Assembly: GCA_020436835.1 (NCBI GenBank)
Contig: JAGQWZ010000272.1
Span: 1 to 49,162, forward strand
Length of the DNA stretch: 49,162 nt
Direction: 5' to 3'
From: Saprospiraceae bacterium
Lineage (GTDB): Bacteria > Bacteroidota > Bacteroidia > Chitinophagales > Saprospiraceae
Position 1 is the first letter of the stretch. Each line of letters opens with the position of its first letter. The notes below the pieces were generated by a model that saw only the letters and a list, made by a program, of their open reading frames with translations, ran no database searches and was not told the DNA's origin. The translations under genes and the position numbers were made by a program. Of the stretch, positions 33,423 through 47,110 are shown in pieces.

Positions 33423-34205
33423 ATGAAAACTGCAGAGAACTCCTGTGCGTATAATCGAGATTATACCCGTTTAGGTAAACTACTTATTTTACCCCTGCTG
33501 GTAATCTTAAATATTGCTGCATTGTCCGGAAAAGGTGCAGAAAATCGCATTCCATTTTTTAAGGTCCCTGAATTAAACACTCAATTTCATTTGCTACCCG
33601 GGATTTTAAACCCAAATGATACATCGGAAGCTGCGCAAAATACTACCCAAAGAGAGGTCATTCAAAAAACCGAGCAAACACAGGCAGCTCAAATTCAGTT
33701 CCTTGGTGTTCCAGATGATATTATTCTCAATTGTGGTGAACCACTGCCCGAATGGCCAGTCGTGACCGCAAAAGATCATCAGGTGGAATTTCAGGTATTT
33801 CCCGGTGAAAAGGTCAATTTCACTCCATGTGGTGGAAGGAACATCATCCGAAGCTGGAGTGTCCGTAATGCCGCAGGTAATACCATCACCAAAAATCAAA
33901 ACATTTCATTTTCAGACAGCGAGGCACCGCTCTTGGATATCGGTAATGACACCATTGTGCACCAGGAAGTGGATCTTCCCCTGCCCTTTTATGAGGCTAG
34001 TGATCAGGGATGTAGCTCCTTTGTTGTCGATATTACTGAAGAAGAGTACAGCTTGAAAAAAGGTACGACATCCGTATTACGGAAATTCGTGGCAACGGAT
34101 GGATGTGGTAATACTACTACTAAGATTCAACATATCCATATTGAAACCGATGATCCAAAGCTCGAATCAAAGACCAAATCAGTTTCATCATTAGAGTATA
34201 GATAG
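33423..34205 (+). CDS. Secreted Cys-repeat protein A
   Basis: This 260-residue protein has an N-terminal signal or anchor (LLILPLLVILNIAAL at about residues 19-33), a low-complexity Gln/Thr-rich linker and two beta-domain-like segments. The first begins with LNCGEPLPEWPVV; the second ends with ATDGCGNTTTKIQHI. This is the HYR/Ig-like 'cohesive surface repeat' style, as in Bacteroidota adhesins. The same CG-x-x-LP-[ED]-WP block and GCGN block recur in the next gene, so they are paralogous. There is no T9SS tail and no catalytic motif. It is followed by a terminator. Function unknown, surface or extracellular location inferred. Confidence 0.68.
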   Translation: MKTAENSCAYNRDYTRLGKLLILPLLVILNIAALSGKGAENRIPFFKVPELNTQFHLLPGILNPNDTSEAAQNTTQREVIQKTEQTQAAQIQFLGVPDDIILNCGEPLPEWPVVTAKDHQVEFQVFPGEKVNFTPCGGRNIIRSWSVRNAAGNTITKNQNISFSDSEAPLLDIGNDTIVHQEVDLPLPFYEASDQGCSSFVVDITEEEYSLKKGTTSVLRKFVATDGCGNTTTKIQHIHIETDDPKLESKTKSVSSLEYR

Positions 34206-34313
34206 AAAGATTTTACGCCAAAGCATAAGAGAAAATACCGATATGAATCATTATATTGAGTTGAAATTTTATTCAAAAGCCAATAGGGATCCCGATCAAC
34301 TTCCTATTGTACC

Positions 34314-34352
34314 GGCAGACAGTATTCTTGCGAGTATTTGTCTGCCTTTTTT
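34314..34352 (+). terminator. Intrinsic terminator after secreted repeat protein A
   Basis: GGCAGACA (34314-34321) pairs perfectly with TGTCTGCC (34339-34346), with a 17-base loop, followed by six T's. It lies about 110 bases after the stop of the gene at 33423. Confidence 0.8.
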
Positions 34353-34414
34353 ATGTACAAAGTCTCCAAATATTTTTTGTCCAAAACTCTAAACGGTTTG
34401 AGGGTTAATAGCCT

Positions 34415-34438
34415 GTCGGCGCACGAAGGTGCGCCGAC
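34415..34438. repeat. GC-rich perfect hairpin (10-bp stem, 4-base loop)
   Basis: GTCGGCGCAC and GTGCGCCGAC flank a GAAG loop. The stem is perfect and far more GC-rich than its surroundings. No T-run follows on either side, so it is not an ordinary terminator. It looks like a REP-type palindrome or a structured leader for the gene downstream. A second weaker stem (GGTTC at about 34471-34475 with GAGCC at about 34484-34488) follows. Confidence 0.7.
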
Positions 34439-34620
34439 CCTCTTTCTCCAAAGCATAGGGAGAGCCCGCTGGTTCTAATTGAGGAGCCCTACCGTTGGAA
34501 AAAAGTCCGAATGAATTAATATAGTTCGAACCAGAAATGCGATGCGCCTTCAATCCTTCTATAGTATTGACCCGAGTTTGTTCAAAATTATTAGATTTAA
34601 TCAGCCCGAACCGATCAAAA

Positions 34621-35853
34621 ATGAAATCCGGTATGCCGAGATCAAATGATGCCTCTGACATTAATCTGTCCTGGTTATTTGGAAGTCTACTGACTCTAAG
34701 TCTCTCCACCCTATTTTTCCTGTCAATTACGTCCTTACGTGGCCAGAACATAAGTAACCCGGAACGAGGCTACGCTCAAACCGTTCTCCAATCAATGGAC
34801 CCGGGATCAAAAGGTCAAACAAAAATTAATATCACTCTTCCTCCGTCTGAACCAATCTGCCTTGTCAACTCATTACCCCCAACCGTCCATGATCTTCCAT
34901 CAAAAAGATCCCGGGAAGAACTTATTGCCGCCATGGAAAATATCGGTCAACAGATGGTCCGAGATCCATCGCTGACCCTTGTTGTATCAGGACCGGATAT
35001 TGTGGGTTCTCACTATCTATTTGTCCGCACCTATACGCTTTCAGGCACCGAAAGCCAGATAGATATCGAGGAGAAACTCTGTATAATCTGGGATCCGAAT
35101 CCCCCCGTGTTAGCTAACATTCCTCCCGATTGTACACGCTCTTGTGGTGCCGATCTTCCGGATTGGCCACAGGTACAAGGCATCGACCTGGAGTGGGATC
35201 ATGTTGTGGTAATTCCATCATCTAATGTAATCGAGCTGGCGTGTGGTGAAAAAGTGAAGCGTAGCTGGACAGCCATAGATGGTTGCGGAAACATCTCTGA
35301 AGCATCGCAAATTATCAATCTGACCAGCCAGATGCCGATCCTCACTGTTCCCGAAGATACGATCATACACTGTAGTGAGGGTATTCCGGCACCAGACTAT
35401 ATAATGGTGGAGGGTTGTTCAAAAATCAATGTTGGATTAAAAGAAATTGTCTCGCCAGGAATTGATTGCAACTATTTTCTTACACGCGTCTGGACCGCAA
35501 AGGACGCTTGCGGTCAAGTTGTAAGGGATACTCAAGTGATACAGGTTATTGATACGATACCCCCCGACATTATACCGATTGGCCCCATGATCGCCAACGT
35601 GAAATCCGGTGATGAGATTGTGGTGGATGGAGATATCAACAGTGCCCTGCTTAAAGAAGAAGATCTCGAGATTAGGGATCAATGTTGCACCCCGGAATGC
35701 ATCATTTCCAATCAATTGATTACCCAAAAACTTCCCGATGGCACCGGTGGTACTTGCACGAAGTGGAAATGTACCGCTACAGTATCCGATCTCTGCGGGA
35801 ATACTACAGAATATCATTATTTCATATTGCATTTAAATACGGATACACCCTGA
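34621..35853 (+). CDS. Secreted Cys-repeat protein B
   Basis: The open frame begins at ATG 34537, but the ATG at 34621 (410 residues) or 34633 places a normal signal peptide first (LFGSLLTLSLSTLFFLSI, ending SLRGQ). The mature chain has several HYR-like beta-modules with paired Cys: RSCGADLPDWPQV, IDGCGNISEASQI, IIHCSEGIPAPDYI, KDACGQVV and SDLCGNTTEYHYF. These match the modules of the preceding gene. There is no enzyme motif, no CHU_C or type A sorting tail, so the export route beyond Sec is unclear. Role unknown; a surface or matrix protein is inference. Confidence 0.7.
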   Translation: MKSGMPRSNDASDINLSWLFGSLLTLSLSTLFFLSITSLRGQNISNPERGYAQTVLQSMDPGSKGQTKINITLPPSEPICLVNSLPPTVHDLPSKRSREELIAAMENIGQQMVRDPSLTLVVSGPDIVGSHYLFVRTYTLSGTESQIDIEEKLCIIWDPNPPVLANIPPDCTRSCGADLPDWPQVQGIDLEWDHVVVIPSSNVIELACGEKVKRSWTAIDGCGNISEASQIINLTSQMPILTVPEDTIIHCSEGIPAPDYIMVEGCSKINVGLKEIVSPGIDCNYFLTRVWTAKDACGQVVRDTQVIQVIDTIPPDIIPIGPMIANVKSGDEIVVDGDINSALLKEEDLEIRDQCCTPECIISNQLITQKLPDGTGGTCTKWKCTATVSDLCGNTTEYHYFILHLNTDTP

Positions 35854-36143: not shown

Positions 36144-36926
36144 TTACAGACCTCCATTCAAGAGCCATTGTTTAAAATGGATCGTCCGATCAGCACTGAC
36201 ATCAAAGGTCTTATCCAAGGGAGAAACAAGGGTAATTTTTAACCTGGATTTGGAGTAGGTCAGAATTTGTCCTATACTTTGGTAACTGACAATAGATTGG
36301 CGGTTTATTCGAAAAAACTTCCCGGCAGGCAGTATTTTTTCCAACTGATCCAGGCTGTAATCGATCGGATATCTTCTATTTTCACTGTTCACATAAATGG
36401 TCAACCTCGATTCGTAAAGGTAATAGGCCGCTTCAGCCAGTTCTAAAACTTCTAAATATTGACCTTTTTTCACTAAAATCCGTTCACTTTTCAAATCGTT
36501 TGTAACCTGAGATTCAAGTTGCTCATTAGATCCGAATTCGGTTTTCTCATTTTGTAGCAGTGATGATACGGGTCTACGCTGAAGGAACCGGTTCATAGCT
36601 TTGGTAAAAGCTTCCCGTTTAATTGGTTTATATAAATAATCAATTGCGAATGCTTCAAAGGCATTCGAAATATATTCCGGATGAGAGGTAGTAAAAATAA
36701 CAGGGCAATTTAAACCAGTGTTCCGTAAAATTTCAAACGAAATTCCATCGGATAAATGCACATCTAAAAACAGAAGATCAGGATTCAGATTATTTTCCAA
36801 CCATTCAATAGATTCATGCACACTATCCAGTTGGGCCACTATCTGGTAGGATGGATTAAAATTATGAATGAAGCGATGAAGCCTGTCAATTGCCGGTTGT
36901 TCATCTTCAATTATCACTATTCGCAT
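36144..36926 (-). CDS. LytTR-type response regulator A
   Basis: The 260-residue protein has a receiver domain (VIIEDEQPA at the start with acidic pocket; LLFLDVHLSDG with the phospho-acceptor Asp55; VIFTTSH; Lys in YLYKPIK) and a C-terminal LytTR DNA-binding domain (about 155-255, with FFRINRQSIVSYQSI and LKITLVSPLD). Such regulators act as dimers on direct repeats. It is the last gene of the cytochrome operon, 12 bases after the DUF5777 gene, and has no kinase beside it. It is a paralogue of the regulator at 40289, so a shared kinase (41041) is possible. Confidence 0.93.
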   Translation of the reverse strand: MRIVIIEDEQPAIDRLHRFIHNFNPSYQIVAQLDSVHESIEWLENNLNPDLLFLDVHLSDGISFEILRNTGLNCPVIFTTSHPEYISNAFEAFAIDYLYKPIKREAFTKAMNRFLQRRPVSSLLQNEKTEFGSNEQLESQVTNDLKSERILVKKGQYLEVLELAEAAYYLYESRLTIYVNSENRRYPIDYSLDQLEKILPAGKFFRINRQSIVSYQSIGQILTYSKSRLKITLVSPLDKTFDVSADRTIHFKQWLLNGGL

Positions 36927-36938
36927 CGTACGGTAAGA

Positions 36939-37814
36939 TCATTTATTGCCTTTCAGACTAAATACCCTGGAGAGATTAAAACCGAAATGGATGCCACCAT
37001 CTGTCCAATCTCCAACGGTCTCAGTAATAAATCCTTTATAAACCATAGAAGTGGAATTAGTAAAATGAAGTTGAAATACATGACCACCTGTCTCTATGTC
37101 AAAACCTATACTTAGACTATTTCTGTAATGTTGCGCCAGTTGATCGGGCAGATTATAAAAATACTCAAGATTTATACTGACCCTTTTGGATATCTTTTGC
37201 CGACCTCCAATGCCGATAGAGAAGACATCATGTGATTCTGCATGCGTCTGTACGAGGTTTCGGTGTACTAATGTCGGCATGAGCTGCAAGCTAAAACCCT
37301 CACTGAATTTTCGTGCGATTAAAATCTGATGCCCGTAGTACAGCCGCGATTGAAATAGATTACTTGCATCCGGATCTTCGAAGCGAAGCGTATTTATCGA
37401 AGCCGTGGCCAGATAAGATAGACTTACAGGCATTATTCGCTTGCCGTTACTTTGTCGCAGGATTCGCATTTTAGCGTAAACGTCGTACATCTTTTCAAGA
37501 CTGCTGCGACCAAAACCCAAACTCAGATTGTCCGTAATGCCGAAATCTCCTCCGATCCTGATTGTCGCTCCATCCAGACCAAACAGATCATAGATTCCGT
37601 TGTTTACAAACCCAAATCTGTGACTGATCTTCACATCAAGAATTCCACGAGGGGTATTTTCTATACTGTGACTATTAATAATTCTGGAGGTTTTAAAAAT
37701 CGCAGAGGTATAATTGATCGTTTCTTCTTCCTCCAGCAAAGAGAGAAGATCTTCCTGAGCGGATACACGAAATAAATGAAATAAAGAAAATACCAATAGA
37801 TAGTACTTATTCAT
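36939..37814 (-). CDS. DUF5777-type outer-membrane beta-barrel protein
   Basis: This 291-residue protein has a signal peptide (YYLLVFSLFHLFRVSAQ) and a barrel-like mature chain: alternating aromatic strands and turns, HRFGFVNNGIYDLFGLDGA near residue 65, and GIHFGFNLSRVF at the C-terminus. It matches the DUF5777 group of Bacteroidota barrels that often sit beside YceI and c-type cytochromes. A pore or outer-membrane anchor for the redox proteins upstream is inference. It is 4 bases from the YceI stop and is co-transcribed. Confidence 0.8.
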   Translation of the reverse strand: MNKYYLLVFSLFHLFRVSAQEDLLSLLEEEETINYTSAIFKTSRIINSHSIENTPRGILDVKISHRFGFVNNGIYDLFGLDGATIRIGGDFGITDNLSLGFGRSSLEKMYDVYAKMRILRQSNGKRIMPVSLSYLATASINTLRFEDPDASNLFQSRLYYGHQILIARKFSEGFSLQLMPTLVHRNLVQTHAESHDVFSIGIGGRQKISKRVSINLEYFYNLPDQLAQHYRNSLSIGFDIETGGHVFQLHFTNSTSMVYKGFITETVGDWTDGGIHFGFNLSRVFSLKGNK

Positions 37815-37818
37815 AAGT

Positions 37819-38388
37819 TCACGATTTGGTGTAAAGCTGATAATCAGCCGAGACTTCTACCTGTATGTTTTCTGCTATCTTACCCTTAACCAATGAAGGA
37901 ATTTCAATATCAAAATCAGAAGGCGATACCACGAAATTACACCGGGCAGAAAAGACCCCGTCTTTTACCACAAATATGACGTCAGTTTGAATTTCCTTGT
38001 CCTTTTCTTTGACATTCAGAATACCCATGACAGGGATCACGTATTCACCGTCTTTATCAAGATCCAGTTTTGACAAATCAACCTCAGTGCTTTTAAACTT
38101 GGCCTTGGGATATTGATCGGACTCCATATAATTTTCATTAAAATGTGTCTGCATCAGGGCGTTCTTAAATAAAAAACCCTTGATCAACACTGAGAATTCA
38201 ACTTTCTGATTATCAAAGTCGACGATGCTAACTGCCTTCTCGTTCACTGCCTCTATTTCCTCCAGGGGTGTGTGCGAATAAAAGCTAATTACTCCCTCTT
38301 TGGTAAAATAGGTTTGTGCATCGAGATAGGCGATGGAAAATAAGAAATATGCGGAAATTAAAATGGTTACACTACGTTGCTGATTCAT
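37819..38388 (-). CDS. YceI-family periplasmic lipocalin-like protein A
   Basis: From the ATG at 38388 the protein has 189 residues with a signal peptide (VTILISAYFLFSIAYLDAQ). An upstream ATG at 38451 would overlap the OB-fold gene and bury the signal. The YceI barrel is recognisable: ISFYSHTPLEEIEAVN near the start, MQTHFNENYMESDQYPKAKF near residue 95, and FVVSPSDFDIEIP toward the end. Relatives bind isoprenoid lipids such as quinones. It sits between the OB-fold and DUF5777 genes. A second YceI gene lies at 44045. Confidence 0.88.
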   Translation of the reverse strand: MNQQRSVTILISAYFLFSIAYLDAQTYFTKEGVISFYSHTPLEEIEAVNEKAVSIVDFDNQKVEFSVLIKGFLFKNALMQTHFNENYMESDQYPKAKFKSTEVDLSKLDLDKDGEYVIPVMGILNVKEKDKEIQTDVIFVVKDGVFSARCNFVVSPSDFDIEIPSLVKGKIAENIQVEVSADYQLYTKS

Positions 38389-38396
38389 AAAGTTTA

Positions 38397-38810
38397 TTAA
38401 TTGATCAAAATACAATTCACTAATATTATATCCATAAGCTTTCCAGAGCATTCTCCTTTCACTTCAACACTCTGGCCTTCACTAAGCATTCCAAAATCAG
38501 ACTGCAGATTATGATTCATTTCACAAACAATCGTACTGAGAGGATCCCCTGTATCTAATACAATGGTAGCTTTTTCGGGGGTTAAATCCAGACTATGAAT
38601 TTCGCCGGATACGAGGACAGTCTTTCCCAAAAACTTTTCCAGAGCACCTTCCTCATCCTCCTCAAAGGCCTCAAACAAGGCCAGGGCGGAAATAGATTCC
38701 TCAGCTTTACGGTATTTGATATCATTGCGGGAATCTCTTTGTGTGTAATAATATACCAAACCGATTCCTACTACTGCAAAAAGGCCCAGGTAAATAAGAT
38801 ATTTTTTCAT
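38397..38810 (-). CDS. Membrane-anchored OB-fold (tRNA_anti-like) protein
   Basis: This 137-residue protein has an N-terminal membrane helix (LIYLGLFAVVGIGLVYYYT), an acidic linker (EAFEEDEEGALEKF) and an OB-fold-like domain: GKTVLVSGEIHSLDLTPEKA and GQSVEVKGECSGKLMDIILVNC. This matches small Bacteroidota proteins of the tRNA_anti-like OB group. It contains two Cys (one mid-domain, CEMNHN, and GECSG) that could be redox or metal sites. It lies 2 bases after the small cytochrome's stop; co-expression with cytochromes and YceI is certain from spacing. Confidence 0.78.
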   Translation of the reverse strand: MKKYLIYLGLFAVVGIGLVYYYTQRDSRNDIKYRKAEESISALALFEAFEEDEEGALEKFLGKTVLVSGEIHSLDLTPEKATIVLDTGDPLSTIVCEMNHNLQSDFGMLSEGQSVEVKGECSGKLMDIILVNCILIN

Positions 38811-38812
38811 AA

Positions 38813-39187
38813 CTAATTATTTGGAGCTCCATCATTTACCCAGGCTTCAATCTTTCTGATGTCACAATCCGGAAGCATGCTTTCGTTCTGAGGCATCGGT
38901 GAATAACCTGGTTCTCTTCTGATTGCACCCAATAGCCTTCCACTATTTACATAAATACTGATTTTATCATAACCTTCCAGTGTTACATTTCCCAGATTGA
39001 GAGAAGCGGCATGGCATTTATAACAACGATTAGACACGATATTGAGGATATCCCCGCTGTAGGTAATATTGTCTGTATTACATTCTGTGTCCATCCGGAA
39101 GTCTTCTTCCACATCATAGTAGCAGCCCATAAATAGCGCAAAAAGAAATATATGGTATACCGGCTTTTTCATTTTTATAATAGACAT
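38813..39187 (-). CDS. Mono-haem c-type cytochrome lipoprotein
   Basis: This 124-residue protein starts at ATG 39187, which directly follows the stop of the larger cytochrome. The signal ends at LFALFMGC, a lipobox-like site, so a lipoprotein is likely. One haem motif CYKCH (about residue 55) and a candidate axial Met in SPMPQNE. The tail (IRKIEAWVNDGAPNN) and the haem surroundings parallel the C-terminal half of the cytochrome at 39188 (IEAWINQGALNN), so one arose from the other. Role in periplasmic electron transfer is inferred. Confidence 0.85.
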   Translation of the reverse strand: MSIIKMKKPVYHIFLFALFMGCYYDVEEDFRMDTECNTDNITYSGDILNIVSNRCYKCHAASLNLGNVTLEGYDKISIYVNSGRLLGAIRREPGYSPMPQNESMLPDCDIRKIEAWVNDGAPNN

Positions 39188-39985
39188 TTAATTATTGAGT
39201 GCACCTTGATTTATCCAGGCCTCAATCACATTAATGTTGCACTGTGGAATCTGATTTCCACCCAAAGGCATTCTCAGAAATCCATTACTCCAGCTTATCA
39301 CTCCAAGAAGTTTACCAGAATTTGCCACACCTGCCACTCCATTGAAATTGGTAAGGCTTATTCCTGCGTTTGGATTGCTGCTGCCATGACAAGTGATACA
39401 ATATGTATTGAAGATCGGCTGCACATCCGAAGAAAAACTGACTGCCGTGGTATCACAGACATCACCTGCCATATTCTCACAGGTCATGTTCTCTGCACCT
39501 TGTAAAATCCATTTTCGGATTAACGCAATTTGCGGTTGGGTGAGCGCAGCATTGGGGGGTGGTGGCATTCGATCCTCCGCATCATCCTCTGTGATCTTTT
39601 CATATAGCTCTGATTTGTCCAAATCAAAAGGCACAACGACATCATCATGAGACATCAGGGATTCATAGCTGGTCAGGATCAGGTCATGTTCTGCAGTGAC
39701 CGGATCATGGCACCCTGCAAAGGCACAATTACCCTGTAGGATGGGTAAGATTTGGGATTCGAAATATACGATTCCCGTATCACAGGGTTCCGAAAGGGTA
39801 TCCACAGGGTTAATTATTGAAGTATCCCCTGGAGTGGTCGTAGTATCTCCTGGATTTACATTGGTTGTCGTATCCGTGATTTCCGGTTCCATCGGCCCCG
39901 GATCAAAAGGAATCTCGGTACGACAGGACCAGAGTGACATCAAAGCCAATAATATCAAGAAGGTCCATATTCTTAGAATCATCAT
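39188..39985 (-). CDS. Two-domain c-type cytochrome lipoprotein
   Basis: The ATG at 39985 (or 39982) gives about 265 residues; a TTG at 39991 is less likely. The signal ends LMSLWSC (lipobox), followed by a Thr/Pro/Asp/Gly linker. Domain one has the haem site CAFAGCH, a Cx4CH spacing instead of CxxCH, with a possible Met ligand in DRMPPPP. Domain two has CITCH with LRMPLGG. Both resemble the planctomycete-type cytochrome domains. Extra Cys (SEPCDTG, TCENM, DVCDT) could form disulfides. It heads the six-gene leftward operon. Whether the Cx4CH site binds haem needs experiment. Confidence 0.85.
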   Translation of the reverse strand: MMILRIWTFLILLALMSLWSCRTEIPFDPGPMEPEITDTTTNVNPGDTTTTPGDTSIINPVDTLSEPCDTGIVYFESQILPILQGNCAFAGCHDPVTAEHDLILTSYESLMSHDDVVVPFDLDKSELYEKITEDDAEDRMPPPPNAALTQPQIALIRKWILQGAENMTCENMAGDVCDTTAVSFSSDVQPIFNTYCITCHGSSNPNAGISLTNFNGVAGVANSGKLLGVISWSNGFLRMPLGGNQIPQCNINVIEAWINQGALNN

Positions 39986-40288
39986 CTGCAAAATCGATTA
40001 TTGAGAATCAATCCCGTTTAAGGTAAATTTTGGTCAATGGGAAAACTCATTCTTTGTGTTGGGAAATGGATGCCAATCTAGTAGACTCCCTCTCACGAAA
40101 ACAAAGGCTGACTTAACAAACCTGGTCGATAAAGTGGTAAACAGATTCATATGGTTAATTTAACCCAAAAATATGCCCTGGTCATTCAATAACCAGGGCT
40201 GATAACGACGAAAGAGATCTTTAAGAATCTGAAATAGAATTCTTTGCCGATGAAGGGGGCTCTTTCCCAGACTAAATTTTCTCCAAAA
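39986..40288 (-). other. Gap between the two LytTR operons
   Basis: This 303-base gap is the upstream region of the cytochrome operon and the tail of the kinase-regulator operon, both leftward. It holds a hairpin (40167-40199). I see no small gene and no clear promoter pair; TACCTTAA at about 40018-40025 on the minus strand is a poor -7 box at best. Confidence 0.5.
40167..40199 (-). terminator. Terminator of the kinase/regulator B operon
   Basis: Reading leftward, GCCCTGGT (complement of 40192-40199) pairs with ACCAGGGC (complement of 40175-40182) around 9 bases, followed by ATATTTTTGG. It lies about 90 bases after the stop of the LytTR regulator at 40289 and in the right orientation. Confidence 0.7.
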
Positions 40289-41044
40289 TCACCCAAGTAG
40301 CCATTTTTTAAAATGGGGAGAACGTTCGGTACTGACGATTGTTTCCAATTCCACTGGTGGCACCAGATCGATTTTGACCCGGCCCTTGGTATGACTGCTC
40401 ATAGTTCCAATGGAATCCATGTGGATAATGAATTTGCGATTAATCCGGAAAAATTCTTCAGACGGTAATTCCGACTCCAATGCTTCCAGGCTTTTGTTAA
40501 GGGGAAACCTCCTCCCTTCCCTGGTGATCGCAAAAGTGATCTTATCCCTGGAATAGAAATAGGCAATTTCATCCAATCGAATAAGATTTATCTTGGCCCC
40601 AACCTTGATCAGGAATCTACGGGAACCAATTGCACCATCCTCTTCATCGGTCACTCCTCCACTAGCGACGGTTTCATCCGGCGAATTCTGTACATAGTGG
40701 CGGAGTTTGGATAGGGCCCTTTCGAGATCAGCCTTCTTGATTGGTTTTAATATGTAGTCGATCGAGTGATGCTGAAAGGATCGCAGGGCATATTCATCAT
40801 AGGCTGTAGCAAAAATAATCGGACAGTCGACATCCACCTGATCAAAAATCTCAAAGCAATTACCATCGGACAGATGGATATCCATAAAAACCAGATCCGG
40901 AGCCGGGTTGTGACCAAACCAGGACACTGCGCTCTCAATACTTTCCAAAATACCGGATATGGTAATCGTGGGATCAATATCCCTGACATACTTTTGCAAC
41001 CTTGCTGCAGCCTGCGGTTCGTCTTCTATGATTAAAGCTTTCAT
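40289..41044 (-). CDS. LytTR-type response regulator B
   Basis: This 251-residue protein starts with ALIIEDEPQAAARL, has the phospho-acceptor Asp55 in LVFMDIHLSDG, Lys in YILKPIK, and a LytTR domain (about 145-250, FFRINRKFIIHMDSI, GRVKIDLVPP). Its ATG overlaps the TGA of the sensor kinase by 4 bases (ATGA), so kinase and regulator are a cognate pair. It is a close paralogue of the regulator at 36144: both share SFEIL/CFEIF surroundings, the KPIK block, and HFK-x-WLL at the C-terminus. The target genes are unknown. Confidence 0.94.
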   Translation of the reverse strand: MKALIIEDEPQAAARLQKYVRDIDPTITISGILESIESAVSWFGHNPAPDLVFMDIHLSDGNCFEIFDQVDVDCPIIFATAYDEYALRSFQHHSIDYILKPIKKADLERALSKLRHYVQNSPDETVASGGVTDEEDGAIGSRRFLIKVGAKINLIRLDEIAYFYSRDKITFAITREGRRFPLNKSLEALESELPSEEFFRINRKFIIHMDSIGTMSSHTKGRVKIDLVPPVELETIVSTERSPHFKKWLLG

Positions 41045-43965
41045 ATTTCTTGTGGTGTTTTTAGTAGCGGAATTGAAACGGAAAAAGTATTTTCATCCTG
41101 GCTGATTATAACCTTCCTTCTGGTCAGTAATTCAAACCTGGTCTTTATATTTTGTAATCCGAATTTGGTTGAACGCTCTTTAGTCCTTTTTGGTTGGAGA
41201 TTATTTTCCACTATCAGATACTCATCGCGCTCAGATCTGACCGCGATCTTAAGTGGTTTTTGTTTTGAAATGATATTATGTTTAACCGCATTTTCGACCA
41301 ACATTTGGAGGGTAAGTGGCGGAATATAATAATCCCTGTTCTCAATCATTTTTTCAACAATAAGGTTATTGCCAAATCTTTTTTTCAGCAAATAGGTGAA
41401 ATCATCTATAAGCAGCAGTTCCTGCTCCAAAGGAATTAATTTCTGATTTCGGAACTGGATGATCGATCGGTAATAATCTGACAACTTTTCGATATACTCT
41501 ACCGCCGTATCTTTATCTTCCTCAACGATGTTAGCCAGGGTATTAAAGCTATTGAAAAGAAAATGAGGATTTATTTGTGCTTTCAATACTTCATACTGGG
41601 ATTCAATCCTTTCTCTTTCAAATGATGCCTGCCGGCTGATCTGTTTTTCGCGATATTTCTGATAGCTGTAAATTATCATTGCGGACAGTACAACAATCAA
41701 TGCAATAAACCAGGCTTTACGCCAATAAGGTGGTGCAACGAGAAAAGAATAAGATGCTTCACTTTGGAGCAATGGCTGATTTTTCATCAGGCAACGTACC
41801 CTGAAAGTATAAGCACCCGGACCTAGGTTGGAGTACGACACTGATTCGTCCCTGGTGTCTTTCCAGGAGAGGTCATAACCTTCCAATTGATATTGATAGT
41901 TAATATTTTCAGATGCCGCATACCAAATTCCGGTGTAATTAAATTGAAGATAATTTTCCCGATAACTAAATTCCTTTGCAGAGGTCAAATCCACTAATTG
42001 ATCAAAAAGATTTATCCGGTCAATCACCAGGCTGGGAAAATTCTGATCAGTGTTTTGATTACCCAAGTAGTGGACCAAAATATTTTGACCTCCGATCCAA
42101 AATACGCCATCGAGACCACTTGCCACTACATTCAGTCCCGGATTGAGTCTCTCCACACCGGCATTACTCTCAAAATATCGAAATGTCTTTTGATCCGGAT
42201 TGTAAAGGTCTATTCCGTTCTCGTGAACAATGATGATATTCCCAAAATCATCCACTGCCAGTGAGGTGATAGTCATATTACTCAGACCATGCTCGATGCC
42301 TAAATGCCCCCAGTTGCTGCCATCAAACATAAAAAGTCCCTCATTATTCGTCCCGATCCACATTCTACCGAAAGTATCTTCCGCCATAGTATAGACCGTT
42401 CTTGCCGGTAAAAGACTATCCGCCAAAAGGTTGCTTAGCCGGCCACGCTCCAAATGCAATAATCCCTGGCCATCTGTACCAAACCACACAGCTCCCTGAC
42501 TATCTACAAAAACTTTGTAAAAGAAATTGGATGTTAGCTCTTTAAAAGAATCCAAATTGGAAAAGGCAATACGGCCCCGGTTGATCAGATCCGGGTCATT
42601 TTCAAGAGATACTATTCCGCCCAGTGTTGCCAACCAAATCTTATCCATTGATCCATCAATAGAAAAAACACTGCCATTGATCATGCCCGAAGCTTCATCC
42701 AATCTAAGATTCCTGCCTGTATTCGGATCCCAGCAAATGATACCATCACCAAATGTTCCAATCCAAATCTTGTTGAATCGGTCGCTGTAAAGTGAAATAA
42801 TATTTTCTCCCGCCCATCCGGCCAGGACTAAGCTATCTTCCACCAGCTCAAATAGTCCGTTTCGGGTCCCGATCCACACCCTTCCCTGGTTGTCCTCGGC
42901 GAGTGCTTGTATGTCGCCGAGCTCATGATGCAGAAGCGCCACTCGGGTAATTCCCCGGTAGATGAACTGTTCGTCCACCAAAAGCCAGATATTGCCGGTC
43001 GCATCATGGAGGATTTGCTCACATTCAGCCGGACCGACGGTGGAAATCCATCTTGGTGTACCGGATCTCAGATCGTACATAAATACTCCTTCGTTCTCGG
43101 TCCCAATCCAGACTGTATTCTTATCCGTCTGAGTCATCGACCTGACCGATCCCATCTCCCAGTGAGAAACCGAAAAATCCACACTGCTGGTGCTCGTCGA
43201 GTAATGACAGAAACCATTACTTTGAAAGCCAATCCACATTCCGGTTTCTGTGGGAGTCAATGTATAGGCGATTTCATCAGACAATCCCTGCTTGATGGTC
43301 AAATTATCAACCGATTTATGTCCGTTGTGAAATTGGCAAATACTCACACCATTGTCCGTGGCCAACCATACTTTACCGTCTATACCAAGGGTCATCTCAT
43401 AAACCTGATCTCCCAGTAAACCGTCATCCCCATTAAAGTTGTATAGGTGCAATGAATCCTGAACATAGACTCCCTCACCATAGGTACTGAACCAAAGCCT
43501 GCCTTCTAAGTCTTTGAGCAGGCCGGTGACCGGCACTTTGGGCAGCCCCTCTTCCGGTTGGTAGGAATGAATCTTCCGGTTCTCCAGGTAGTAAATCTCT
43601 CCAGTTTCTGCCCCGCACCAAATTCGTCTGCCATCGGCATAAATACTGATCAGATTACTGGTTTTATTGCTATCAGCGAGGGCAAATGCCTCGTAGTTTC
43701 GACCATCGTAGCGGTAAAGACCCTTTTGAGTTCCCAACCAGGTAAATCCCAGGCTATCTTGTGTGAGCACATTTACCCCTGCATCCAATTCTTTTTCAAG
43801 ATCTTCTTCGATCAAATGGGGTACCTGTGCATAAAGACCAGGTCCCATACAGACCAACAAAGAAAGGAATAACCTAAAGGAAAATGCAGGAATAAATCTC
43901 CGGCAGTACGTTGCATCCAACCATTGGGTAAGAATTACCATGCCTGGAAATACTGTTTGCAACAT
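41041..43965 (-). CDS. Propeller-sensor histidine kinase (LytS-type) of the HTCS-like group
   Basis: This 974-residue protein has a signal peptide (RLFLSLLVCMGPGLYAQ), about a dozen Reg_prop repeats of the GxxWxGTxxGLxxxD type (about residues 50-690; for example FTWLGTQKGLYRYD, VWIGTRNGLFEL, MWIGTNNEGLFMFD), a Y_Y_Y domain near 715-745, a membrane helix near 755-775 (WFIALIVVLSAMIIYSY), and a LytS-type kinase: QINPHFLFNSFNTLANI with the phospho-His, LQMLVENAVKHN (N box) and FGLQNIKTRF. It lacks the AraC domain of full hybrid HTCS and instead passes the phosphate to the adjacent regulator. The ligand is unknown. The ATG at 43965 is used; 43941 is an alternative. Confidence 0.93.
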   Translation of the reverse strand: MLQTVFPGMVILTQWLDATYCRRFIPAFSFRLFLSLLVCMGPGLYAQVPHLIEEDLEKELDAGVNVLTQDSLGFTWLGTQKGLYRYDGRNYEAFALADSNKTSNLISIYADGRRIWCGAETGEIYYLENRKIHSYQPEEGLPKVPVTGLLKDLEGRLWFSTYGEGVYVQDSLHLYNFNGDDGLLGDQVYEMTLGIDGKVWLATDNGVSICQFHNGHKSVDNLTIKQGLSDEIAYTLTPTETGMWIGFQSNGFCHYSTSTSSVDFSVSHWEMGSVRSMTQTDKNTVWIGTENEGVFMYDLRSGTPRWISTVGPAECEQILHDATGNIWLLVDEQFIYRGITRVALLHHELGDIQALAEDNQGRVWIGTRNGLFELVEDSLVLAGWAGENIISLYSDRFNKIWIGTFGDGIICWDPNTGRNLRLDEASGMINGSVFSIDGSMDKIWLATLGGIVSLENDPDLINRGRIAFSNLDSFKELTSNFFYKVFVDSQGAVWFGTDGQGLLHLERGRLSNLLADSLLPARTVYTMAEDTFGRMWIGTNNEGLFMFDGSNWGHLGIEHGLSNMTITSLAVDDFGNIIIVHENGIDLYNPDQKTFRYFESNAGVERLNPGLNVVASGLDGVFWIGGQNILVHYLGNQNTDQNFPSLVIDRINLFDQLVDLTSAKEFSYRENYLQFNYTGIWYAASENINYQYQLEGYDLSWKDTRDESVSYSNLGPGAYTFRVRCLMKNQPLLQSEASYSFLVAPPYWRKAWFIALIVVLSAMIIYSYQKYREKQISRQASFERERIESQYEVLKAQINPHFLFNSFNTLANIVEEDKDTAVEYIEKLSDYYRSIIQFRNQKLIPLEQELLLIDDFTYLLKKRFGNNLIVEKMIENRDYYIPPLTLQMLVENAVKHNIISKQKPLKIAVRSERDEYLIVENNLQPKRTKERSTKFGLQNIKTRFELLTRRKVIISQDENTFSVSIPLLKTPQEI

Positions 43966-44044: not shown

Positions 44045-44608
44045 TCAATTTGATGTTTGTTTCAAAAGAGAAATTTCCATGACCACCTTTATCTCTTCCG
44101 AAATCTTTTGTGCTACAATTTTAGGAATATCTATTTCATGTTCTTTTAATGGCACCGTAAATTCAGAGCGAATTATTACCTGGTCAGAAAATATTTCGAT
44201 TTGACTGGGAATAATTCGTTCCCGTTTTACACCATGAATACTCAAAAATCCCTTAGCCCTAATTTCATTAGGACCTTCATTTTCCCAATCCAGGTTTTCA
44301 ATGATCTTACCGACAAAAGTCGCTTTTGGATGCTTACTGCTCTCAAGATAGTTTTCATTAAAGTGCGTTTTCTGCAAATCGCTATTGAAACCATCAAACG
44401 ATTGTATATCGATTGTAAAAGCAAAGGTATTTTGAATAGGATCAATTACACCGCGCAAAGCACCGCTGCTGGCCTGAATAAGTTCCAGTGGTGCATCAGA
44501 AGTAAAATGTATTTGTCCCTCATCTGAGCGGTATAACCCCTTCTGGGCCAAACCATAATTACTAAAGAAAATGATAATCAGAAATATAAAATAAGGTCTT
44601 ACTGGCAT
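44045..44608 (-). CDS. YceI-family periplasmic lipocalin-like protein B
   Basis: The 187-residue protein has a signal peptide (FLIIIFFSNYGLAQ) and the YceI barrel: IHFTSDAPLELIQASS, THFNENYLESSKHPKATF near residue 90, SIHGVKRERIIPSQI and a FTVPLKEHEIDIP end. It parallels the YceI at 37819 (shared HFNENY-[ML]-ES). It is 13 bases downstream of the thioredoxin gene and 79 bases upstream of the kinase. Ligand unknown; isoprenoid binding is known in the family. Confidence 0.88.
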   Translation of the reverse strand: MPVRPYFIFLIIIFFSNYGLAQKGLYRSDEGQIHFTSDAPLELIQASSGALRGVIDPIQNTFAFTIDIQSFDGFNSDLQKTHFNENYLESSKHPKATFVGKIIENLDWENEGPNEIRAKGFLSIHGVKRERIIPSQIEIFSDQVIIRSEFTVPLKEHEIDIPKIVAQKISEEIKVVMEISLLKQTSN

Positions 44609-44621
44609 CGTGATTCGAATC

Positions 44622-46049
44622 TCAATTCTGAGGTTTGATTATCTGATCAAAGAATTCGCCTAACTGTTCCGGCCCCAGATCCTTACTGATAATCTTTTTG
44701 TCTTTATCCAAGATAAACAACTTGGGCGTCTTTTTAATGTTGAACAAGGAATGCATAAAGGATCGACCACCATTCTGATCGGAGACATTGATCCATCCAT
44801 CCATCGTATCCAATTGTCTCTCATCCACAAATTCCCAACAAGGAGGTTCATCTTTCAAAACCTTGGTACAGACTGAAAATACTTTGATCCCCAGATCGGC
44901 ACCTCTTTTTTCGTAGAAATCCTTGAGTTTAGGCATTGATTCTTTACAATGGCTGCAATCATGTGCCCAGAATACAACAATAGTATAGTCCGCACGGATA
45001 TCATACAACGTAATATCCGTACTATCCCTTTGTTGCAGTTTTACGTTAGGTGCAAACTTTCCTATCAGTGTTGGCTCCGCTTCCCTGGCATTTTGGATGA
45101 TTTTTTCCAATTGAGCATCTTCAACCCAGGGAGCCTTATCCTTTGCGTAGTAATTAAGTGCCAGATGCACATACACTGCGTCCATGCCTACAATTTTACT
45201 TTGCGCATAATCATTGAGAAATTTGATCAGGTAGTAACGGTAAATTTCCTCGGCACCCTCCATTTCGTGCAGCAAATAGTCAATAGACTGAATAATGGAA
45301 TCGGGATGCTGAGGCGTCAGTTTTTCCAGATAATAATTGACCCGGTCAAAAATGATATGTTTTGGTGCTCTCAACAGTCGCTCATCTGACAGATTCACAT
45401 GATCAAAATAGTGTTTCTTATAATATCGGTACTGCTGCGTATTGATTTCCTCCTGCGTTCCCGTATATTCCGGTATATCAATCAAAAACCCACTTCTAAT
45501 CAGGGCAGAAGTAAGATATCCGGGGTTTGCTTCGACCAGGCTTTTTTGATATAAAGTGACCTCGTCGTTGATCGCCTTCAGTCTCTCATCCACCGCCAAT
45601 TGATCTGCTTCGGAAAGGGTATCTTTCGCTGCATTCAAAGCCTCTACTTCCTTTCTCTTCGTGCTGATATACCGAAGATTTTTATAGAAGAGTTCATTAT
45701 CGGATGACCCGGTAAACTCAATGGTTTCTTCAATTTGATCCAGATCACCAGAGAAACTGAATTCATTTTCCTCGGCATCTACAATTATCTGAAAATACCG
45801 GTTGTCTGGGGGCATCACCACCAGATACACACCTTCCTTCAGGGAGTCCTCTGAAAACTGGAAGTCTCCGTTTTCTACTGTTGCTGTATCTAACAGGTAC
45901 TGCTTATCACCGTAGTAGTAGCCGAGAAAGATTGAATCTTGCGAATAGTTCTCCAGGTGCCCTTTGATTTCGTATCGCGGAGCTTGCGAATGGGAAAGTT
46001 GAGTGAAAAGGAAAAATGCGAGCGTCGTTAAGGTATACTTGATATTCAT
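44622..46049 (-). CDS. DUF4369/thioredoxin-fold exported protein
   Basis: From the ATG at 46049 the protein has 475 residues with signal peptide (TTLAFFLFTQLSHSQ). Order: a DUF4369-like beta-rich N-terminal domain (about residues 25-110; YEIKGHLENYSQDSIFLGYY), a helical middle (about 120-320, DUF5106-like), then a TlpA-type thioredoxin domain with the redox site FWAHDCSHCKESMP (CxxC) near residue 355 and the cis-Pro KKTPKLFIL. It should shuffle disulfides or deliver reductant in the periplasm. The frame runs back to an ATG at 46163 overlapping pyrB's stop, but that would bury the signal. Co-expressed with YceI B and perhaps kinase. Confidence 0.88.
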   Translation of the reverse strand: MNIKYTLTTLAFFLFTQLSHSQAPRYEIKGHLENYSQDSIFLGYYYGDKQYLLDTATVENGDFQFSEDSLKEGVYLVVMPPDNRYFQIIVDAEENEFSFSGDLDQIEETIEFTGSSDNELFYKNLRYISTKRKEVEALNAAKDTLSEADQLAVDERLKAINDEVTLYQKSLVEANPGYLTSALIRSGFLIDIPEYTGTQEEINTQQYRYYKKHYFDHVNLSDERLLRAPKHIIFDRVNYYLEKLTPQHPDSIIQSIDYLLHEMEGAEEIYRYYLIKFLNDYAQSKIVGMDAVYVHLALNYYAKDKAPWVEDAQLEKIIQNAREAEPTLIGKFAPNVKLQQRDSTDITLYDIRADYTIVVFWAHDCSHCKESMPKLKDFYEKRGADLGIKVFSVCTKVLKDEPPCWEFVDERQLDTMDGWINVSDQNGGRSFMHSLFNIKKTPKLFILDKDKKIISKDLGPEQLGEFFDQIIKPQN

Positions 46050-46159
46050 TTTTTTAGTCCTATGAGCATTAATAATTCTGGTCTGAACACATCCGGCCAG
46101 AGCTTTTATAGTAAATCGAAGGTAATTCATGGTTTTATTAACGATAGAATCAGAGATTA

Positions 46160-47110
46160 TCATGTGCCCATCATTGACCGGGATCTTGGAGCAGCCAGGA
46201 GATACAAGACTGCCATACGAACCGCAACCCCATTTTCGACCTGCTCCAGAATGATCGATTGATCAGAATCAGCTACTTCACTACTTAGTTCCACTCCGCG
46301 GTTTATAGGGCCGGGATGCATGATCACCACTGGAGACTTAAGGCTATTCAAGAGCGGTAAATCAATGCCAAAGTACTGGGTATATTCCCGCAGGGATGGG
46401 AAAAACTTAATATCCTGTCTTTCCAGTTGAATACGTAAAACGTTGGCAACATCACACCATTCCATGGCCTCTCTCACGCTGTATGAAACTTTTACACCCA
46501 AAGACTCTATGTGTTTGGGAATCAAGGTGGGAGGACCGCAAACCATAACTTCTGCACCCAGCTTACCCAGGCAGAATATATTGCTCAGGGCCACCCGGCT
46601 ATGTACGATATCACCAATGATGGCTACTTTCAGTCCTTTGAGCTCACCAAAGTGGTCACGAATGGAAAATGCATCCAGGAGAGCCTGGGTTGGATGTTCG
46701 TGTGTCCCATCACCTGCATTGATAATATTGGCATCGATGTGGTTGGAAAGAAAAGAGGCTGCCCCGGGAGCAGGATGGCGCATTACCACCATATCTACTT
46801 TCATCGACAGAATATTGTTAACCGTGTCTAACAGGGTTTCTCCTTTTTTGACCGAAGATGCCGAGGATGAAAAATTGACCACATCGGCACTGAGCCGCTT
46901 TTCAGCTAATTCAAATGAAATCCTGGTCCGGGTGGAATTTTCAAAAAAAAGGTTAGCTATGGTGATGTCTCTTAACGAAGGAACTTTCTTGATCGGCCGG
47001 TTTATTACTTCTTTGAAACTATCGGCTGTTTCAAATATCAACTGAAGATCATCCTGGTTCAGGTATTTTATCCCCAGGAGGTGCTTGGTACTCAATTGCA
47101 GTTCTGCCAT
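46160..47110 (-). CDS. pyrB: Aspartate carbamoyltransferase catalytic subunit
   Basis: This 316-residue enzyme condenses carbamoyl phosphate with aspartate, the committed pyrimidine step. Sites visible: FFENSTRTRISFELAE (carbamoyl-phosphate loop, near residue 56), a KKGETL lysine loop, MRHPAPGAA, HEHPTQALLDAF, and HPGPINRG (aspartate site). Its ATG shares one base with the pyrR stop (TAATG), so the two are translationally coupled. No pyrI is adjacent; PyrB alone with pyrR is the Bacillus-like arrangement, so control probably acts through PyrR. Confidence 0.95.
   Translation of the reverse strand: MAELQLSTKHLLGIKYLNQDDLQLIFETADSFKEVINRPIKKVPSLRDITIANLFFENSTRTRISFELAEKRLSADVVNFSSSASSVKKGETLLDTVNNILSMKVDMVVMRHPAPGAASFLSNHIDANIINAGDGTHEHPTQALLDAFSIRDHFGELKGLKVAIIGDIVHSRVALSNIFCLGKLGAEVMVCGPPTLIPKHIESLGVKVSYSVREAMEWCDVANVLRIQLERQDIKFFPSLREYTQYFGIDLPLLNSLKSPVVIMHPGPINRGVELSSEVADSDQSIILEQVENGVAVRMAVLYLLAAPRSRSMMGT

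Follow-up and report, generated by a model that had tools for sequence, protein, structure and literature searches.

A DUF5777 barrel gene cluster found across Bacteroidota, a possible quinone-linked electron relay of the cell envelope

Introduction

Proteins of the YceI family hold isoprenoids, some of them ubiquinone-8 (PMC9113575, PMC8981238). In the LcoA-BcnA system a YceI protein is encoded together with a cytochrome, and redox chemistry of envelope quinones is proposed there (PMC9113575). The exported Cbp2D of Cellvibrio is built from YceI-like and small c-type cytochrome domains (PMC8981238, PMC12542752), and cbp2D and cbp2E are among six genes required for cellulose use (PMC12542752). 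In MtrCAB-type complexes and Cyc2, barrel genes adjoin the genes of c-type cytochromes (PMC5566968, PMC6344600). Here, we describe a run of six genes from a 49,162-nucleotide contig of a Saprospiraceae bacterium (JAGQWZ010000272.1, assembly GCA_020436835.1), which is called the window throughout. The run encodes two cytochrome lipoproteins, an OB-fold protein, a YceI protein, a DUF5777 outer-membrane barrel and a LytTR regulator. We tentatively read it as the Saprospiria form of a Bacteroidota-wide module that would relay electrons, by way of quinones, between periplasm and cell surface.

The locus shares parts with each of these systems and is identical to none. LcoA-BcnA has a cytochrome b561, whereas the module has c-type lipoproteins and an outer-membrane barrel, often with an OB-fold protein. 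No cytochrome b561 was found among the 19 window proteins scanned, the related loci not being included in that search; the genome's matches to the b561 family PF01292 lie on other contigs, one of them above cut-off. Cbp2D is a single polypeptide with a cellulose-binding module, whereas the corresponding parts are here separate, lipid-anchored proteins accompanied by a barrel. Unlike MtrCAB and Cyc2, the module has a 12-strand barrel without a haem site of its own, and the window's type has only one- and two-haem cytochromes. Of the marks of MtrAB, a barrel large enough to enclose a cytochrome and a multihaem periplasmic cytochrome encoded beside it, neither is found in this type, the barrel being judged from its model. 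SusCD-type pairs likewise join a barrel to a lipoprotein that is acid-rich after its lipid cysteine, but the operon has no TonB-dependent receptor and its lipoprotein is a predicted cytochrome.

The initial annotation of the window knew of no named system with this composition and none was found in the literature searched either. No paper naming DUF5777, PF19089 or the module was found in a search that covered few subscription papers, which leaves its unpublished status unproven. New porin-cytochrome candidates in Bacteroidetes are mentioned, unspecified, in one study (PMC6344600), and DUF5777 barrels could be among them.

The gene run and its conservation

The six open reading frames (ORFs) lie on the minus strand, from 39985 to 36144, with intergenic gaps of 0, 2, 8, 4 and 12 bases, so that the six closely spaced leftward genes of the initial annotation are all confirmed (Table 1). 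All Pfam assignments quoted for the six genes are above the family cut-off. Export was judged from hydrophobic stretches at the N-terminus and from lipoboxes, using a simple rule together with visual inspection. An in-frame TTG at 39991 lies just upstream of the dihaem cytochrome start at 39985. The longest ORF for YceI begins at 38451 and overlaps the OB-fold gene; the ATG at 38388 gives, by eye, a clean signal-peptide-like start.

Table 1. Features of the six-gene run and of the region upstream of it, in window coordinates
Feature	Position	Strand	Basis
Dihaem c-type cytochrome lipoprotein	39188..39985	-	Pfam PSCyt1 6e-16
Monohaem c-type cytochrome lipoprotein	38813..39187	-	CYKCH; 36% identity to dihaem C-terminal part
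Membrane-anchored OB-fold protein	38397..38810	-	Pfam tRNA_anti-like 2.2e-16
YceI-family lipocalin, likely isoprenoid/quinone carrier	37819..38388	-	Pfam YceI 1.6e-12
DUF5777 outer-membrane beta-barrel, 12 modelled strands, DLLSLL	36939..37814	-	Pfam DUF5777 2e-95
LytTR response regulator, lineage-specific addition	36144..36926	-	Pfam Response_reg 1.3e-12, LytTR 2.2e-12
Terminator-like hairpin, 11 pairs, T-rich tail	40175..40199	-	Pattern match only
LytTR response regulator of upstream two-component pair	40289..41044	-	Pfam
Sensor histidine kinase (Reg_prop propeller, Y_Y_Y, His_kinase)	41041..43965	-	Pfam
Second YceI-family protein, upstream of kinase	44045..44608	-	Pfam 9.2e-13

DUF5777 is found above cut-off in 54 of 60 relatives. 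Across the phylum, 152 of the 395 genomes sampled have it (153 with a threshold of E 0.001), and none of 14 control genomes, which include a Bacteroides, does. The surroundings of the barrels were compared in loci of up to 20 kb, mostly 12–14 kb, with genes labelled by profiles made from the window and a few neighbours. A run is defined as same-strand genes with gaps of at most 400 bases, skipping unlabelled opposite-strand ORFs of fewer than 260 amino acids. Three samples were drawn. The first has 54 loci (L121–L174), one barrel per genus among the matches listed, which is usually, not always, the best of its genus; 83 genera had a match, and those already covered or outside the matches listed were left out. 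The second has 79 barrels from the relatives and the window's own genome, two partial matches (G057 and contig 42 of G032) being left out. The third has loci of named organisms, the best 80 of 585 matches to a profile in which window-like barrels predominate, and is therefore biased to the window's type. Seven further barrels, with long frames or in multiple copies, are counted only in the totals of 220.

Conservation extends beyond close relatives, 52 of the 54 genus-sampled barrels keeping some redox partner in their run. YceI is there in 47 runs and a CXnCH lipoprotein in 43, the two occurring together in 39, and an OB-fold protein is present in 18. Among the 79 barrels of the second sample, 74 have a partner (a cytochrome in 63, YceI in 35, a dihaem cytochrome in 23, OB in 20, Fe-S protein with NrfD in 9), as do all 80 of the third (cytochrome 69, YceI 69, OB 62). 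The record titles of the third sample span Saprospiraceae, Flavobacteriales, Bacteroidales, Chitinophagales and Cytophagales and include the cultured Runella, Hymenobacter, Pontibacter and Salibacter. Around the 220 barrels, neighbouring genes of the set are separated by median gaps of 10 bases (n=270) and 11 bases (n=256), counted from longest-ORF starts, and gene order shuffles between lineages. Because the cluster is conserved across the phylum, its genes are far more likely to form a dedicated unit than to be neighbours by chance. The cluster noted earlier from the window alone is real and phylum-wide, and its part in envelope electron transfer stays a proposal; the regulator of its own that it was given does not carry over, as explained in the last section.

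Barrel types and co-inheritance

The barrels can be divided by the company they keep. Types 1 and 4, which have YceI with or without OB, or in a few cases OB alone, are the window's kind and make up 162 of the 220. Type 2 (25 of 220) is marked by a dihaem class I cytochrome within the run, accompanied in the window's genus by a CCP_MauG-type gene in divergent orientation. In type 3 (13 of 220) a 4Fe-4S protein and NrfD are present in all runs except one, and a multihaem lipoprotein-like protein is found in 8 of the 13; these proteins have Gly-rich, collagen-like N-terminal stretches, which match the collagen model below cut-off. The window's genome holds one barrel each of types 1, 2 and 3.

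Gene context tracks barrel phylogeny. On a FastTree phylogeny of 218 barrels (two short ones dropped, types 1 and 4 merged), 22 context changes are counted, compared with at least 51 in 200 shuffles. Calculated without a species tree, the pairwise distances between barrels rise with those between their small cytochromes (r 0.73, n=170) and between their YceI proteins (r 0.75, n=151), whereas shuffles reach no more than 0.10 and 0.18, respectively. When only OB-type runs are taken, r is 0.55 for the small cytochrome and 0.66 for YceI. These correlations show co-inheritance, not contact.

Two observations were made on the rarer types. The type 2 dihaem cytochromes have extra cysteines, C161 and C165, invariant in 25 of 25 (example L086:7571-8593). 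The type 3 clusters (L087:3065-9080, and L085, L091, L096, L116 and L150), with cytochrome lipoprotein, barrel, 4Fe-4S protein, NrfD and multihaem protein, are a candidate electron-transfer or nitrite-type cluster of Bacteroidota.

The cytochromes

Both of the cytochrome c lipoproteins named in the initial annotation are present, with the correction that the larger one has two predicted haem sites. It consists of a PSCyt1 domain with a CX4CH site (CAFAGCH, 39707–39727), a Thr/Pro/Asp-rich linker and a second class I domain with a CxxCH site (CITCH, 39386–39400), and the two kinds of site occur together in 72 of 86 related large cytochromes. The smaller, monohaem protein has its haem site, CYKCH, at 39011–39025 and a distal Met98. 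No Pfam match above cut-off was obtained for it; a profile of 45 sequences of its family, searched against the PDB, leads to class I cytochromes (c6 at 3.6e-05, FoxE at 1.7e-04).

A CX(2-10)CH motif is present in all 184 small cytochromes near barrels; 178 of 180 retain the distal Met and 183 of 183 a Trp. Together with the PDB profile match, the motif and Met counts back a class I c-type character of these proteins. The spacing is CxxCH in 108 of the 184, CX4CH in 67, CX3CH in 4 and longer (CX5, CX7 and CX10, assigned by eye) in 5. A spread from CX2CH to CX10CH within one cytochrome family is an observation in its own right (loci L064, L073, L094, L109 and L234).

The lipid-bearing Cys22 of the monohaem protein is followed by an acid-rich stretch, YYDVEEDF, which resembles a surface-export signal; an acid-rich lipoprotein export signal is described for surface lipoproteins of Bacteroidota (PMC5080379). 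At least three Asp or Glu at positions +2 to +8 after the lipid cysteine are found in 65 of 131 small cytochromes overall and in 37 of 66 from OB-type runs, compared with 4 of 55 large cytochromes. Among the window's relatives, SusD as positive control gives 10 of 18 and BamD as negative control 0 of 23. Sequences dropped from this count, mostly for having no lipobox by rule, were 12 of 30 SusD, 7 of 30 BamD, 53 of 184 small and 31 of 86 large cytochromes, and a few SusD and BamD rows under the family cut-off were retained. Because these N-terminal counts differ, the small monohaem cytochrome is predicted to face outward and the dihaem one inward.

The DUF5777 barrel

The barrel matches DUF5777 (PF19089) with 319.2 bits against a cut-off of 23.1. 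Its structural model has 12 strands, with a predicted local distance difference test (pLDDT) score of 93.2 and a predicted template modelling (pTM) score of 0.85. The best fold match is to KdgM/NanC, which are 12-strand porins, at 5–11% identity in the fold alignment. Searching PDB sequences with a profile gave no relative, one match at E 0.98 being taken as chance. MtrB and Cyc2 are not among the fold-search matches listed, which excludes nothing. Judged from the model, the barrel probably does not have the width to enclose a cytochrome in the manner of MtrAB, and no fused cytochrome-barrel proteins were found, CX(2-10)CH being present in 0 of 220 barrels.

His65 and His245 are invariant in 139 of 139 barrels. 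Strand-by-strand hydropathy, with sidedness inferred from residue parity, places both of them facing the lipid, along with Phe67, Phe247, Phe279, Arg283 and His184. A role of the two histidines as haem ligands in the lumen was rejected as first framed, since by parity both are on the lipid side. The His and Phe of this strip are just as invariant in barrels of types 2 and 3, where a YceI input is absent, and Gly278/Phe279 may simply be part of the barrel-assembly signal. An acidic-Leu motif at the mature N-terminus (DLLSLL in the window), defined by a pattern of our own, is present in 114 of 161 barrels of the YceI/OB types and in 0 of 38 of types 2 and 3. As a docking site for YceI it was set aside and is kept as a lead only: 47 of the 161 have no motif and ancestry explains much of the distribution.

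YceI and the OB-fold protein

The operon YceI scores 48.4 bits against PF04264 (cut-off 23.7). As a single sequence it finds no match in the PDB; the profile of its family finds the solved E. coli YceI 1y0g (3e-07), 5ixg (4.4e-07) and also 5ixh, so its placement in the family holds. With 8 YceI genes in the 7.28 Mb of the window's genome, one would by arithmetic be expected near about 1% of random points, compared with the 47 of 54 genus-sampled barrels that have YceI in their run.

The AlphaFold2 model of the OB-fold protein (pLDDT 91.9) has one long N-terminal helix followed by the OB fold. Conserved positions among 102 sequences include Gly69, Cys96, Cys121 and Gly123, and Cys96, Cys121 and Cys133 are retained in 90, 93 and 75 of the 102. 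Searched alone against the PDB, the OB fold gave one match, at E 0.21, taken as chance. A membrane-anchored OB fold is common to this protein and CcmE, and a CcmE-type haem chaperone was considered. CcmE chaperones have a conserved haem-binding His, but no His occurs in columns more than 80% conserved among the 102 sequences, and this role was rejected.

A proposed relay and its alternatives

In the proposed relay, our preferred though tentative reading, YceI would cross the periplasm with an isoprenoid quinol and bring it to the outer membrane. There, the dihaem lipoprotein, whose predicted orientation on its flexible linker is periplasmic, would exchange electrons with the quinol of YceI, and the monohaem lipoprotein, with a predicted position at the surface, would give electrons to a partner outside or take them from it. 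The 12-strand barrel would join both sides in the outer membrane, where it may also serve as a guide for quinol or for a small redox molecule. Through its conserved cysteines, the OB-fold protein, with its predicted one-helix anchor, could couple the relay to the inner membrane. In types 2 and 3 the YceI/OB input would be swapped for a dihaem cytochrome or for Fe-S/NrfD, often with a multihaem lipoprotein in addition. The membrane could be crossed by quinol in the lipid, by a small redox molecule through the lumen or by lipoproteins coming close to one another.

If the module carries electrons to the surface, it would be an unlisted outer-membrane redox system in much of Bacteroidota. It would also give a function to the large DUF5777 family and, beside Cbp2D and BcnA, a further setting for YceI as a quinone carrier. 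The cultured hosts named above make the module testable.

Several results weigh against this relay. The crossing is its weak step; a 12-strand barrel need not wire electrons. The lumen side of the modelled barrel carries conserved charged residues and, because of these and the 12 strands, haem-to-haem transfer through the barrel looks too long. Of the 54 genus-sampled runs, 11 are without a recognised cytochrome and 7 without YceI, and eight of the 220 barrels lack every recognised partner; two of these eight (L088 and L124) are at contig ends and beside a third (L142) YceI is read divergently. The acid-rich signal is modest within close relatives (15 of 40, p 0.013 versus BamD) and weak in the small cytochromes of type 2 (2 of 14). 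Of the seven type 3 multihaem proteins scanned, six match the MtrC/MtrF-domain model above cut-off, but all seven match cytochrome c7 and several c552, which is not diagnostic of extracellular transfer. In addition, cultured genera that carry the module, such as Hymenobacter and Runella, are aerobic heterotrophs and are not known as extracellular reducers.

A more specific version of the relay must be considered quite doubtful. In it, menaquinol ferried by YceI would move on the lipid-facing strip of the barrel, formed by His65/Phe67, His245/Phe247 and Phe279/Arg283 on strands 1, 11 and 12, and would be oxidised by the surface monohaem lipoprotein, making a common system with no known counterpart. 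Here, electrons would cross as quinol in the lipid and not from haem to haem within a pore. In types 2 and 3, the barrel would take the other inputs, dihaem cytochrome or Fe-S/NrfD.

The main rival, somewhat unlikely on balance, is an envelope antioxidant, in which a YceI quinol would quench lipid peroxyl radicals of the outer membrane, the cytochromes would recycle it and the barrel would serve as an anchor. By analogy to LcoA-BcnA, this would fit the YceI protein equally well, YceI being common to the Burkholderia lipocalins. YceI can also serve in peroxyl-radical defence; lipid peroxidation is raised in bcnA or lcoA mutants, and reduction of the BcnA-bound quinone by the cytochrome is suggested by the authors (PMC9113575). 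Consistent with protection, a peroxiredoxin-type gene is present in the runs of L064, L067 and L073 (AhpC-TSA at 2.5e-45 for L067, the one scanned), and dihaem proteins of CCP_MauG type are encoded beside the type 2 loci of the window's genus. The redox partners here are, however, c-type and lipid-anchored, not an inner-membrane cytochrome b561, and an antioxidant needs neither a surface-exposed cytochrome nor the type 3 gene set.

It is unlikely that the barrel is an export or assembly factor, Slam- or FapF-like, or a small-molecule channel, for a surface cytochrome to which electron transfer belongs alone. Nine of the 11 genus-sampled barrels without a recognised cytochrome nevertheless keep YceI or OB, and the general surface-lipoprotein signal of Bacteroidota needs no barrel per substrate (PMC5080379).

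A true porin-cytochrome conduit, with a haem segment inside the barrel as in MtrAB or Cyc2, is very unlikely. The barrel gene does adjoin haem-lipoprotein genes in most loci and type 3 runs often add a multihaem lipoprotein, as such a conduit would have it. The confident model, however, has 12 strands, compared with about 26 in MtrB and 16 in Cyc2, the lumen side is charged, and none of the barrels carries a haem motif of its own. A split-Cyc2 or MtrAB-like conduit was our initial hypothesis, which lost weight once the barrel was modelled with 12 strands and its lumen side proved to be charged. Least probable of all is a sensory device in which the redox proteins report the quinone or oxidant state of the envelope to a neighbouring kinase: a kinase/LytTR pair, sometimes with another YceI, does stand beside the module, but the kinase is not core, being present in the barrel's run in 0 of 54 loci of the first sample, 8 of 79 of the second and 14 of 80 of the third.

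Regulators and neighbouring genes

The LytTR regulator at the end of the run (RR260) scores 48.3 bits for the receiver and 47.5 bits for the LytTR domain, both above cut-off, and is 36% identical to the upstream response regulator. It had been described as the orphan regulator of the system. A similar regulator directly follows the barrel in only 2 of 220 cases, the window and L056, both of the window's genus, and is missing from L060 of the same genus; a second regulator lies nearby in the kinase/LytTR pair at 43965..40289. RR260 is a local addition to the operon and not part of its core, and the description should therefore be dropped. Kinase-response regulator pairs adjoin the module in a minority of cases.

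The six genes are probably a transcription unit of their own, because the 11-pair hairpin separates them from the kinase/LytTR pair. Five terminator-like sites were found in the region, compared with 3.3 expected, and the other four have 5 pairs. Upstream of the six genes, a search for LytTR-binding direct repeats gave only weak, chance-like repeats. Sigma-70-like sites are not enriched (9 versus 12.4 in shuffles).

The second YceI protein is 35% identical to that of the operon across the aligned stretch. Together with a DUF4369/DUF5106 thioredoxin-like gene it lies upstream of the sensor kinase (44045-46163), and a YceI gene adjoining a kinase recurs in some relatives. On the other side of the operon, two plus-strand ORFs with hydrophobic N-terminal stretches adjoin it (33423-35853), the second of which has a HYR_4C match below cut-off.

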